The notes under the pieces: model-generated | Seen by the model: the letters and a program-made list of their open reading frames with translations, nothing else | The model's database searches: none | What the model was told of the DNA's origin: nothing | Made by a program: the position numbers and the translations under genes | Part shown: one piece after another, positions 56,103 through 64,000 of the stretch | Layout of the letters: the number at the start of each line of letters is the position of its first letter | Position numbering within the stretch: the first letter of the stretch is position 1 | Source: Deltaproteobacteria bacterium | GTDB taxonomy: Bacteria > Desulfobacterota > Desulfobulbia > Desulfobulbales > Desulfurivibrionaceae | NCBI GenBank assembly: GCA_021847425.1 | Contig: JAJZRF010000002.1 | Coordinates: 1-64,000 of the forward strand | Length of the DNA: 64,000 bases | Direction of reading: 5' to 3'

Positions 56103-57662
56103 GTGACTGTACAAATAATATTAGCGATTGTACTTGGCATATGCTGTGGAGTTGGCCTTGGTTTTCTGGTGCGCAAGAAGTTTCTTGAAGATCGCAGGGA
56201 AAATCTTGAGGCGCAGGGACGCAAGCTTATTGAAAACGCTTTGGCCGAAGCAGAGCAAATTAAAAAAGAAGCTGTTCTGCAAAGCAAGGATGAAGCTTAT
56301 GCTCTGAAACAGGAAGCAGAAAAGGAAATTAAGGCGCTCAAGAAAGATGTTCTTGAGGAGGAGAAAAAGTTCATCCAAAAACTTGAACAGATTGAGCGGA
56401 AAATGGATTTTCTGGACAAGCGGGAGATGGATTTCTTAAAAAAGGAACAGTCCTTTGCCCGGGAGGAAGAGGTTTTGGGGCGTCGACAAAAAGAGATTGA
56501 TCTTGTTATCGAAGAACAGCGCGTCCAGCTTGAAAAAATTTCCGGAATATCTCGTGAGGAAGCCAAAAAGCAGCTTACGGACAGCATCGAAAGTGAAGCA
56601 CGGATGGAAGCCGCCAAGATGGTGGTCAAGATTGAAAACGAAATGAAGATTCAGGCCGATAAAAAGGCAAAGGATATCATTGCCCTGGCCATTTCTCGAT
56701 ATGCCGGCGATTATGTCGCGGAAAAAACCGTTTCCGTTGTGCCTTTGCCAAATGAGGAGATGAAGGGGAGGATCATCGGCCGTGAAGGCCGGAATATCCG
56801 GGCTATCGAAGCCGCAACCGGAATCGACATCATTATTGACGACACCCCGGAAGCGGTGATCCTCTCGGGCTTTAATCCTGTCCGACGTGAGATTGCCCGT
56901 CAATCCCTGGAGCGATTGATCACCGATGGCCGAATTCATCCCGCCAGAATCGAGGAGATTGTGGAAAAGGTGAGCGAGGAGCTTGAGGTGACCATGCGGG
57001 AAGCAGGGGAACAGGCAACCTTTGATGTGGGAGCCCATGGCGTCAATTTGGAGTTGATCAAGCTGCTCGGTCGTCTCAAATACCGGACCAGCTATGGTCA
57101 GAATGTTTTGCAGCATTCCTTGGAGGTTGCCTTTCTCTGCGGCATTATGGCGGCCGAACTTGGAATTGATGTGAAACGGGCAAAGCGGGCCGGGTTGTTG
57201 CATGATATCGGCAAGGCCGTGGATCATGAGATTGAGGGATCACACGCCAGCATTGGCGCGGATTTGGCTAAAAAATATGGTGAATCATCGGTTATTGTGC
57301 ATGCTATTGCCGCCCATCATGAAGATGTTCCGCCGGATGGAGTTCTTGATGTTCTCGTGCAATCTGCTGACGCCCTCTCCGGCGCCCGGCCCGGGGCGCG
57401 AAAGGAAATGCTGGAGTCGTATGTCAAACGGCTTGAGGATCTTGAGAAGATTGCCAACTCTTTCAAGGGGGTTGAAAAATCCTACGCCATTCAAGCTGGC
57501 CGTGAAGTGCGGATCATAGTCAACAGTGGGGTGATCAGCGATGCCGAGGCAATGATAGTCAGTAAGGACATTGTCAAGAAGATCGAGCAGGAATTGACCT
57601 ATCCCGGTCAGATTCGTGTCACCGTAATCCGGGAAACCAGGGCAGTGGAATACGCCAAATAG
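56103..57662 (+). CDS. rny: Ribonuclease Y
   Basis: RNase Y is a membrane-anchored endoribonuclease starting mRNA decay. The N-terminal membrane segment ([20 protein letters not shown]) is followed by a long coiled coil to about residue 190, a KH domain ([19 protein letters not shown]) and an HD domain with [27 protein letters not shown] and AHHEDV. The start is GTG at 56103 with ACATGAGG upstream. At 519 residues it is full length. Coexistence with RNase G is notable but known in this group. A strong terminator follows. Confidence 0.97.
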
Positions 57663-57749: not shown

Positions 57750-58967
57750 ATGAATATATCAATTGAAAAACAGATAGAGTTGATCCAGCGCGGGGCTGTC
57801 AACGTTATTTCCCGAGCAGATCTTGTAAAGAAACTGGAAAAGTCGCAAACGACCGGAACGCCTTTAAAAATCAAGGCCGGGTTTGATCCGACCGCTCCGG
57901 ATCTTCATCTGGGGCATACTGTTCTTATTCAAAAACTGAAGCATTTCCAGGATCTCGGGCATGAGATTTGTTTTCTGATCGGGGATTTTACCGGGATGAT
58001 CGGGGATCCGACCGGCAAGTCCGAGACCCGGAAGCCTTTGACGGTCGAACAGGTGGAGAAAAATGCCGAGAGCTACAAAGAGCAGATCTTTAAGATTCTC
58101 GACCCGGAAAAAACGAAGATTGTTTTTAACAGCACCTGGCTGAATATGCTCACGTCTAAAGACTTCATCATGCTTGCCTCGCAACTTACCGTGGCGCGCA
58201 TGCTTGAGCGGGAGGATTTTAAGGTCCGTTTTGAAAATGAGCGGCCTATCAGCATTCATGAGTTTCTCTATCCCCTTATTCAGGGCTATGATTCTGTTGC
58301 TCTTAAGGCGGATGTGGAGATTGGGGGCACCGACCAGCTTTTCAATCTGCTCATGGGCCGGGATCTGCAACGGGTGTGGGGCCAGGAGCCCCAGGTGGTC
58401 ATCACCATGCCTTTGCTTGAAGGACTCGACGGGGTCAACAAAATGAGCAAATCCCTTGGCAATTATATCGGCATCACCGAAAAGGCCGATGATATCTATG
58501 GGAAAACCATGTCGGTTTCCGATGATCTCATGTTCCGGTATTTCGAGTTGCTCAGCGATCTTGCCGCGGAGCAAATAGATGCTCTCAAGGTGGAGATGCA
58601 GGCGGGACGGCTTCACCCCAAGGCGGTCAAGCAGCAGCTGGCCCGAGAATTAACTGGGCGCTTTTACGATGCCGTGACTGCCCAGAGGGCGGAAGAAAAT
58701 TTTGAGAAGATATTCAGCCAGCATGACAACCCGGAAGATATGCCCGCGATTGTCATGTCCGCCACTGAGGAAGGAGTCTGGCTGCCGAGACTCCTGGTTG
58801 AAACCCAGTTGGTCAGCGGAACCGGAGAGGCCCGGCGGATGATCCAGCAGAATGCTGTTTCTATTAATGGTGACAAGGTGAGCGACATAGAGCATCTCGT
58901 TATGGCCCAAGGCGAAATTATCCTCAAGGTCGGCAAGCGGCGTTTTTGCAAGGTTGTATTCACTTAG
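57750..58967 (+). CDS. tyrS: Tyrosyl-tRNA synthetase
   Basis: TyrS charges tRNA-Tyr. The HIGH-type site is [18 protein letters not shown], the KMSKS site is [15 protein letters not shown], and the C-terminal S4-like RNA-binding domain is [18 protein letters not shown]. Gaps and length (405) fit the TyrRS group with a small S4 domain. No obvious Shine-Dalgarno is near the ATG, and a terminator lies immediately upstream, so its transcription start needs attention. It is followed by a terminator at 58991-59030. Confidence 0.97.
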
Positions 58968-61483: not shown

Positions 61484-63937
61484 TTACTTCGCGCCCCTTT
61501 TTTTCTGCATGATCTTTTCAAGCTCTCCGCCATCGACAATCTCCTGCCGGATCAGGATGTTGGCCAGGATGTCGATCTGCTGCCAGTTGGCCTCCACCAG
61601 TTCCTTGGCCATTCGCGTGGCCTTGTCGATCCAGAGGCGGACCTGGCGTTCCACCACCTCCTGGAAAAGCTGCTTGTTCACGTTGCGGCTCAAGGTGTCG
61701 GCATGGACAAAACCCAGCTCCTCGTCCATGCCGAGGTTGGCAATAGCGGTGTAAGCCTGGCGGGTCGCATCCTCAAGGTCGCTGGCAGCCCCGGTGTCCA
61801 TGCCCTTTGAGCCGAATTTTTTTATGCTTGTCGTTCTTCCTGCCATGAGCACGCAGATGTTGTTGAATATCTCCTCTTTCGAGAGATTGCTGGGGAAATC
61901 CTCGAAGCTGTAGGAGATGAAACCCAGGGTCCGCAACCGCGGGGCAATGGTGACCTGCTCGATTTTGGTATTCGGGAGCAGCAGGTAGGAGAGCACCGCA
62001 TGCCCGGCCTCGTGGAAAGCGGTCATGCGCAGGTCTTCCTCCAGGTTGCGGATATGTTTTTTTTCAAGCTTCGAGCCGTACTTGATGATGTTGATCTGTT
62101 CGATAAGGATCTCTTCGCTGATGCAGTCAAGGCCGTGGCGGATGGCGTGGAGGGAGGCCTCCTTGCCGATGCGCTGCAGCTCGTAGCCGTTCATGCCGGA
62201 GATGTAGCGCACCACCTTGTCCACGTCGATCTTGCCGTTGTTGGGCTTTTTCAGGATCTGCTCGACGAAGAAGCGCCGCGCCTCCCGGTCAAGCTCCGGC
62301 GCCTCGACAAAGGTGTCGATGCGTTCAGGCTCGATGAGCAGGGGAGGCACCTCCTCCCGGCTCACCGCCGTAACCACGGTGAACACCGACTCCTCCGGCT
62401 CGGCGGAAAGCGCGTCGAGCTCCAGGGCGAGCTGGTCGGCGGGCACGCCGGTCAGCATCCCCTCCATCAGCCCCTTGACGTCGATGCCGTCCAGAAAAAC
62501 GATGCTGGGCGCGTATTCCCGCGCCTTGAGATAGACCTGCCGGATGTATTCGTTGTCAAACAGCTCGGTGCGGGAGACATAGATGTAGGGCCGGCCTGCC
62601 TCCCTGGCAAAGGCCTTGCCCAGCAGGGTTTTGCCGACGCCGGGAGGGCCGTGGAGCAGCATGCCCTTGGGCAGACTGATGGAAAACTTCTTCACCAGCT
62701 CGGGATGTTTCAGGATATTGATGATCTGCTTCAGGGTGGTTTTGGTCTGACGGTTGCCGGCGATGTTTTCAAAGCCGATCTCGGAAAATTCGACGGCCGG
62801 CCGTTCGTTGCGCAACAGCCCCTTGCTCACGGGCAGGGCGCGGGTTTCCGCCCCGGCCAGGCTGAAGATGAGGCTTTCTCCCCGCTGGTACTCATTCCAG
62901 GTCAGCTCCACGGTCTGGTTTTTTTTGTAGATCAGGGGCAGGATCTGGTCGCCGGCCTCCGAGAGCCGCTGGCGCGAGGCCTCACCCTTTTTGGTGACCT
63001 TGAAGATGATCCGGGCCGGAGGGGTGGGCAATTGCCGCAGGCTGCGGGTGATCTTGAAGAGCACCTCGTCGGGCAGCTTCTGCTTCACCTTTTTTGCGGT
63101 AATCGCCGGACCCAGGGAGAGCACCAGCAGCGGCACCAGCCCCTTGAGATCGGGAAACTCAAGGGCGATTCCCTTTTGGCGGAAATGTCCGGCCAGCTGT
63201 AACAGGGAATCCGTGCCGATGCGGACCATGGCGTTTATGCCCAGCCGGTTGAAGAGAACGATATAGTTCTGGGCCAGGGTGGCCAGGAGCTTGGGGGCGA
63301 TAGCCTCCTGGAGGATCTCGCCTGTCAGCTTCTTTTCCTTGGCGATTGCATCCATGATCAGGTTCTGGGCCCGGGTCTTGCTGCGCCGGAAGGTGGCCAA
63401 AAATTCCTTGCCCTGGTAAAGGGCGCTGCCCAAGGTGGAGGTGAAGATGAAGATCACCTCCCGGCAGTTGATGCCGCTGTCCGGATCCTCTTTGCTGATC
63501 AGGTCGAGCAGCGCCATCTGCAGCTGGTTGCTCGCCATTTCAATGGATTCAAAAAGGATGATGGCGCAGGGGGTGGCGCGGAGAAAGCGGATCAACTCGC
63601 CTTCCTGGATTTCCTGGCCGACGACCTGGGGGGCAAGGAGCTGGGCGGCGTTTTCCGGATCGCTGTAGCGTTCCAGGTCGAAGTGCTTGAAGCCGTCATA
63701 CTCCTTGAGCATGTTGCAGAGAACCCGGGCCAGATAGATCTTACCCACGCCCGGCGGGCCCAGGAAGGTGAAGATCGCCTTGGGCGGCGCCTCCTTGGGC
63801 GGACGGAAAGCCATGTGGATGAAGGCGTCCACCACTTCGTCGATGGCGTCGTTCTGGTCGAGAACGATCTTTTTCAGTTCCCGGCGGATGGCCTCAAACT
63901 GCTTGAGCTGATTTTTTTTGGGTCCGGAACGTGGCAA
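61484..63937 (-). CDS. Soluble FtsH-like M41 metalloprotease with tandem, degenerate AAA modules
   Basis: Residues 20-170 resemble a Clp-type AAA domain: GPPGVGK at 60-66 is followed by Ile rather than Thr/Ser, and the Walker B position reads CAIILFESIE. Residues 390-560 resemble FtsH: Walker A GPPGVGKTLL at 430 is intact, but Walker B is SIVFLDGID (Gly484 in place of the catalytic Glu) and the second-region-of-homology segment VTAVSREEV lacks the sensor Asn. The M41 protease has HEAGH at 642-646 and Asp720 in AASDLEDAT. No membrane segment is visible. The start is TTG at 63937 with GGGAGAA upstream. It is probably a protease with impaired or altered ATP hydrolysis. Confidence 0.85.
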   Translation of the reverse strand: MPRSGPKKNQLKQFEAIRRELKKIVLDQNDAIDEVVDAFIHMAFRPPKEAPPKAIFTFLGPPGVGKIYLARVLCNMLKEYDGFKHFDLERYSDPENAAQLLAPQVVGQEIQEGELIRFLRATPCAIILFESIEMASNQLQMALLDLISKEDPDSGINCREVIFIFTSTLGSALYQGKEFLATFRRSKTRAQNLIMDAIAKEKKLTGEILQEAIAPKLLATLAQNYIVLFNRLGINAMVRIGTDSLLQLAGHFRQKGIALEFPDLKGLVPLLVLSLGPAITAKKVKQKLPDEVLFKITRSLRQLPTPPARIIFKVTKKGEASRQRLSEAGDQILPLIYKKNQTVELTWNEYQRGESLIFSLAGAETRALPVSKGLLRNERPAVEFSEIGFENIAGNRQTKTTLKQIINILKHPELVKKFSISLPKGMLLHGPPGVGKTLLGKAFAREAGRPYIYVSRTELFDNEYIRQVYLKAREYAPSIVFLDGIDVKGLMEGMLTGVPADQLALELDALSAEPEESVFTVVTAVSREEVPPLLIEPERIDTFVEAPELDREARRFFVEQILKKPNNGKIDVDKVVRYISGMNGYELQRIGKEASLHAIRHGLDCISEEILIEQINIIKYGSKLEKKHIRNLEEDLRMTAFHEAGHAVLSYLLLPNTKIEQVTIAPRLRTLGFISYSFEDFPSNLSKEEIFNNICVLMAGRTTSIKKFGSKGMDTGAASDLEDATRQAYTAIANLGMDEELGFVHADTLSRNVNKQLFQEVVERQVRLWIDKATRMAKELVEANWQQIDILANILIRQEIVDGGELEKIMQKKRGAK

Positions 63938-64000
63938 GGGTTTTCTCCCATGAGGGTTTGCAGGCAGTTTCCTCCTTCCGGGCGGCTCAGGAGGTAGGCT

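Follow-up and report, generated by a model that had tools for sequence, protein, structure and literature searches.

Near one end of the window, by which we mean the whole 64,000-nucleotide stretch of DNA analysed, lies a gene for an 817-aa protein that we consider, with slightly better than even confidence, to be an M41 zinc protease, soluble and probably assembled as a hexamer, which has lost its ATP-driven unfolding motor, has kept its protease, and would act independently of ATP in the manner of LonC. As far as they can be read from the sequence, its domain layout, the loss of the catalytic Glu and the pore loop from both AAA modules, the intact zinc ligands and the purifying selection on the gene all fit this reading.

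Gene and domain architecture

The frame contained 817 codons without a stop, its openness continuing to the window edge, and the open reading frame agreed in coordinates, strand and length with an earlier, sequence-only reading of this DNA (Table 1). The TTG start is plausible: in most close relatives the frame is closed by a stop shortly upstream, within a few codons, and the gene starts at the same Leu codon; a possible ribosome-binding site precedes it. Two other genes of the window, resembling by eye those for RNase Y (56103..57662, (+)) and tyrosyl-tRNA synthetase (57750..58967, (+)), gave it an ordinary housekeeping setting. The source genome contained three other M41 genes besides the hybrid gene, two of them canonical FtsHs in which all motor motifs sought were present and the third only partly visible.

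Table 1. Features of the hybrid gene, with residues of the protein and positions in the window
Feature	Residues	Position	Strand	Basis or remark
Whole gene		61484..63937	(-)	817 aa, TTG start; ORF, Pfam, AF2 model
GGGAG, possible ribosome-binding site		63945..63949	(-)	7 nt before TTG; by sequence reading
Module 1, ClpB NBD2 fold	5-354	62876..63925	(-)	VIA-align; AAA_2
Walker A 1, GPPGVGKI	60-67	63737..63760	(-)	Alignment; Ile67 variable
Site of ClpB-type pore loop of module 1	100-112	63602..63640	(-)	Aromatic motif lost
Walker B 1, IILFES	126-131	63545..63562	(-)	Ser131 replaces Glu
Module 2, FtsH-like AAA	380-620	62078..62800	(-)	Pfam, PDB/fold comparison
Walker A 2, GPPGVGKT	430-437	62627..62650	(-)	Intact; alignment
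ELFDNEY, in place of FtsH FVG pore loop	458-464	62546..62566	(-)	Alignment
Walker B 2, IVFLDG	479-484	62486..62503	(-)	Gly484 for Glu, 45/45 rows
Sensor-1 region	519-526	62360..62383	(-)	Val525 replaces Asn
SRH arginine region, IEPERIDT	535-542	62312..62335	(-)	Alignment
Family signature, EQINIIKYG	613-621	62075..62101	(-)	(Near-)invariant in alignment A1; pattern search
M41 protease domain	631-812	61502..62047	(-)	Pfam PF01434, 107.7 bits
HEAGH zinc motif	642-646	62000..62014	(-)	Intact; 45/45 rows
Asp720, third zinc ligand	720	61778..61780	(-)	44/45 rows; Asn in broken gene L035

The profile search proposed in the sequence-only reading recovered both AAA regions and the protease, with AAA_2, AAA and Peptidase_M41 each scoring above the Pfam cut-off. 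Among the NCBIfam models the N-terminal third was closest to ClpA and ClpB, while the C-terminal half was nearest FtsH, scoring 215.9 bits where the model's cut-off is 600. An AlphaFold2 model built from a 49-row alignment (A6) had a mean pLDDT of 82.5 and a pTM of 0.60, with parts of the M41 domain below pLDDT 60 in this monomer. Residues ~5-354 of the model matched the ClpB C-terminal domain by VIA-align (Z about 22, rmsd 4.1, 297-299 residues), and residues ~380-814 matched FtsH chains 6gcn (Z 21.1, rmsd 7.2 over 395 residues) and 2ce7 (Z 21.0, rmsd 6.4 over 400 residues). From these profile and fold matches we therefore conclude that the protein is chimeric, with a ClpB-type NBD2 joined to a soluble AAA-M41 unit of the FtsH kind, the extra N-terminal AAA module noticed earlier being the NBD2-like part. 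ClpB and ClpA have two Clp-type modules, whereas here a single NBD2-like module is followed by an FtsH-like second module fused to M41. With FtsH the protein shares the order of AAA and M41, the HEAGH and Asp ligands and the fold, but it carries the additional module and has no membrane anchor. No transmembrane stretch was found in the 817 residues, the highest 19-residue Kyte-Doolittle mean being 1.52 as compared with 2.28-2.53 in four canonical FtsHs by the same measure, which bears out the missing anchor reported earlier.

Motor and protease sites

The earlier claim that key residues had been lost from both AAA modules held, the catalytic Walker B Glu being gone from each. Which Glu, Asn and Arg matter in the motor motifs follows established AAA+ protein knowledge. 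Module 1 kept Lys66 of its Walker A motif, and its Walker B motif read FES in place of the LDE of Clp proteins, with Ser131 for Glu and Glu130 for Asp. This substitution and the loss of the ClpB-type aromatic pore loop go beyond what had been reported for the module, namely an Ile after the Walker A Lys; the Glu and the loop are features of the ClpB/ClpA NBD2 that are partly kept in the long forms described below. Ile67 is indeed present in the window protein, but it is not conserved: among 45 Desulfobulbales-type rows, which include the window protein and several partial or duplicate entries for a single gene, the position held I in only 24, T in 6, C in 3, N in 2, S in 1 and a gap in 9. We thus discarded a conserved Ile67.

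For module 2, the same alignment confirmed two reported changes: the Walker B Glu is replaced by Gly (LDG), conserved as Gly484 in 45 of 45 rows, and the sensor-1 Asn is absent, its column containing Val525. Two further losses, on which the sequence-only reading was silent, were a short LFDNEY segment where FtsH has the FVEMFVGVG pore loop, and IEPERIDT against the RPGRFDR of the FtsH SRH, with most of the SRH arginines lost. With LDG, Val525 and IEPERIDT, the window protein lacks the functional AAA site that marks FtsH, in which a Walker B Glu stands together with a sensor-1 Asn and the SRH arginines. The Walker A Lys was kept in both modules in nearly all rows, and since module 2 keeps both its Walker A motif and the Walker B Asp, slow hydrolysis is possible. 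The zinc-protease residues were intact, as first read, and the zinc motif was intact in all 97 of the motor-dead sequences scored (see below).

Relatives and their forms

A pattern-based scan of a genome collection, which its tool describes as spanning 84,980 species, returned 72 loci. Their titles named mainly Desulfobulbaceae, Desulfocapsa or Deltaproteobacteria MAGs and Campylobacterota; a small number were MAGs titled only Proteobacteria or bacterium. Scoring covered at most 5 candidates per genome for the Campylobacterota count below and at most 6 in another screen, and the counts resulting from these two are lower bounds. Among the matches listed, the fused form was observed in 19 of 58 relative genomes, its own included, and in 9 of 17 genomes of the same genus; its presence is therefore patchy. 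The exact signature pattern, which misses variants such as that of G041, occurred in 5 of 395 genomes spread over the phylum (its own, three of the same order, and G195 outside the order), and at least 31 of 298 Campylobacterota genomes, the phylum name being taken from locus titles, had a family member. Residue comparisons of relatives used distinct sequences only in two of the alignments, including the assignment of kinds.

Several kinds of protein were distinguished. Fused motor-dead forms comprised the window protein, all Desulfobulbales-type rows and most other long Campylobacterota rows. Five Campylobacterota fused proteins, four of them with 44-49% identity to the window protein, kept DE in module 2 and not in module 1. 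The sequence-only reading had held that close orthologues with canonical residues would mark its substitutions as local mutations; such residues were found only at the distance of these five proteins, while every Desulfobulbales row carried DG. A working second motor is thus compatible with the architecture, and the window protein might still be a weak ATP-driven protease through the Walker B Asp or other residues, but we regard this as very improbable given Gly484 in every Desulfobulbales-type row across many assemblies, with sensor-1, the SRH arginines and the pore loops lost as well.

The long forms (20 rows) showed the reverse defect, with the module-2 motor residues Lys, Thr, Asp, Glu, Asn and Arg intact in 20 of 20 and the zinc His642 replaced by Tyr (8), Arg (9) or Lys (3). 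Their module 1 had Ala or Ser for the Walker B Glu and kept a ClpB-like loop, GYPxGWxGY. One long form, L211 (G855), had YEAGH, with only the first zinc His lost, and is perhaps a half-way state between HEAGH and YEAGR. Unlike the window protein, module 2 of the motor-intact long form L118 matched Cdc48/VAT chains in a PDB search (E 2e-76) in preference to FtsH (best E 5e-65). Short forms (38 rows, mostly of ~450 aa, with a few fragments) had no module 1, carried ED at Walker B 2 in almost all cases and kept HExxH in 38 of 38. Fully intact relatives, with DE in both Walker B sites, the sensor-1 Asn and HEAGH, were L208, L209, L210 and L048 (G646, G658, G687 and G440, respectively), rare double-motor M41 proteins of ~920-980 aa.

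Selection on the gene

Median dN/dS over 91 pairs of 14 close genes was 0.16 for AAA1, 0.16 for the linker, 0.08 for AAA2 and 0.13 for M41, values from which purifying selection is read for every domain; the dead AAA2, having the lowest value, is thus the best-kept part. Two Desulfobulbales-type relatives, L035 (with HESGH and Asn at 720) and L037, had the gene split over at least two frames, which suggests that it can be dispensed with in some cases. These broken genes are the kind of evidence that decay would leave, but for the window gene dN/dS of 0.08-0.16 over the 91 pairs ruled decay out as far as sequence can tell, and identical residues in independent assemblies speak against an assembly artefact; either explanation is vanishingly unlikely.

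The strong constraint on AAA2, together with the Walker A Lys retained in both modules, is also what might be expected of a nucleotide-gated protease, in which ATP binding, with hydrolysis slow or absent, would open or close the ring, perhaps for site-specific cuts in a regulatory substrate. A purely structural cause could explain the same constraint, however, and around 73 loci we found no substrate, neighbour or regulator, which leaves gating decidedly unlikely.

In a control set of canonical FtsHs (15), M41 evolved at 1.96 times the AAA rate. The corresponding M41/AAA2 ratio lay at 0.92-1.18 for motor-dead groups, which is what a shift of constraint towards the protease would produce, and was 0.78 in the DE group; short forms entered this analysis without AAA1 columns, which gave a warning. 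The long forms had a ratio of 1.98, like the FtsH control, and we accordingly dropped the idea of a relaxed M41 in them, the ratio alone being uninformative there.

Proposed mechanism and known systems

The most economical account is a ring-shaped protease whose AAA rings would no longer pull. Both rings would most likely still bind nucleotide while acting as a scaffold and an entrance, and perhaps also as a switch. Without hydrolysing ATP, the enzyme would degrade protein ends or polypeptides that are unfolded or only loosely folded, much as LonC does among Lon proteases. The earlier suggestion of an ATP-binding but poorly hydrolysing protease fits this prediction, given the Walker A Lys kept, both Glu residues lost and purifying selection; nothing pointed to the regulated sheddase-like enzyme also suggested.

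By analogy with LonC we infer the hexamer, the nucleotide binding, the absent hydrolysis and the substrate class of the window protein. According to PMC3391209, LonC (MtaLonC) is an AAA+ protease in which the Walker B motif and the sensors are degenerate and the protease is intact; it forms a hexamer, binds six nucleotides without ATPase activity, and needs no ATP to cut proteins that are unfolded, though it leaves folded ones uncut. The window protein likewise combines lost ATPase residues with intact protease residues. LonC has a Lon serine-lysine protease domain (PMC3391209) where the window protein has M41, and it belongs to a separate family with its own independent motor loss. Within the M41 family, plant FtsHi and the Ycf2-FtsHi motor are described (PMC8197885, PMC9020784) as members that have lost one activity and act in mixed complexes. 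FtsHi keeps its ATPase and lacks HExxH, which is the pattern of the Campylobacterota long forms and the opposite of what the window protein shows, and it is membrane-bound in the plastid, whereas the window protein is soluble.

FtsH is held to require ATP for feeding its protease. A motorless lineage with a dead AAA ring under selection would reveal what the ring does besides pulling. Since relatives show the opposite pattern, with the motor kept and the cutting site lost, the protein is well suited to studying how a molecular shredder can function without its engine. A literature search whose coverage stopped short of subscription papers and preprints found no description of a ClpB-FtsH architecture or of a natural dead-motor M41 protease.

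Complementary losses across the family

We scored module 2 and the zinc motif in 125 sequences with at least 380 residues in the scored region, after setting aside duplicates or fragments (L004, L110, L108, L173, L037, L035, L077) and without requiring sensor-1 for the motor-intact label. Ninety-seven were motor-dead and protease-intact, 19 motor-intact and protease-dead, 9 intact in both and none dead in both, although the broken gene L035, if kept with Asp720 counted, would score as dead in both. This complementarity is suggestive rather than statistical, because all protease-dead rows fall within a single clade and only two independent pairs exist. For the same reason we rejected mutual exclusion as a statistical claim, the Fisher p of 5e-16 (125 rows) being dependent on the tree.

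The tree was built by a quick method, and the basal intact L208 and L209 lay on long branches beside the outgroup. A single clade of all motor-dead rows was rejected (p-AU 0.008), and the residues replacing the module-2 Walker B pair varied by clade (DG; ED; EG, ES, DN), both consistent with repeated motor loss; under parsimony, one loss and one regain was equally short (two changes). The DG rows grouped in a single clade (SH-aLRT 99.4) that sits inside the Campylobacterota rows, a placement suggestive of transfer between the Desulfobulbales-type and Campylobacterota lineages.

Partners and neighbours

The main rival to a free-standing protease is a mixed machine, in which an ATPase-competent, protease-dead subunit would unfold and feed substrates and a motor-dead subunit would cut. 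The motor would be the long-form paralogue in Sulfurovum and, in Desulfobulbales, either canonical FtsH or ClpB or some further ATPase. Its best place is in Sulfurovum sp. AR and NORP77, each of which held one long form (motor-intact, protease-dead) and one short form (motor-dead, protease-intact), and the absence of sequences dead in both among the 125 is in line with it. Of the 19 long-form genomes, 9 also had a short form. Among these 9 were all 7 genomes of the YEAGR type, two of which (G444, G461) had been reached via the short form. Ten long-form genomes, on the other hand, had no short form, and only 5 of 26 short-form genomes had a long form, leaving 21 without; pairing is therefore not obligatory, although many of the genomes are draft or incomplete MAGs and the absences correspondingly soft. 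We did not retain a strong co-occurrence of the two forms. No motor-intact long form was present among the matches listed in the 58 relative genomes, those of Desulfobulbales included, and taking these counts together we judge the mixed machine rather unlikely for the window protein.

The earlier proposal of one half of a hetero-oligomer accordingly stood in part: it drew indirect support from the Campylobacterota paralogues because they show the reverse defect, and found no partner among the Desulfobulbales matches listed, the short and long forms also often occurring alone. A broader reading, possible but somewhat short of probable, is a soluble ClpB-FtsH hybrid family with motor and protease parted by lineage, some lineages retaining the protease alone, some the second motor alone and a few both, in which the Sulfurovum halves perhaps form one mixed complex and the Desulfobulbales half is a free-standing ATP-independent M41 protease. 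The reverse-defect paralogues provide a ready-made test of whether different chains can supply motor and protease.

Clustering of the neighbouring ORFs of 73 loci (L005-L077) yielded no conserved neighbour, and an operon or neighbour partner was ruled out on this basis. A defence system was also dropped, PADLOC having returned partial AAA matches only. The commonest neighbour cluster, from 14 short-form and mostly Sulfurovum loci, resembled uracil phosphoribosyltransferase by eye. At two loci (L031, L033) the hybrid gene was followed, a few kilobases downstream, by a canonical FtsH-type gene on the opposite strand, an arrangement that was not a rule elsewhere.
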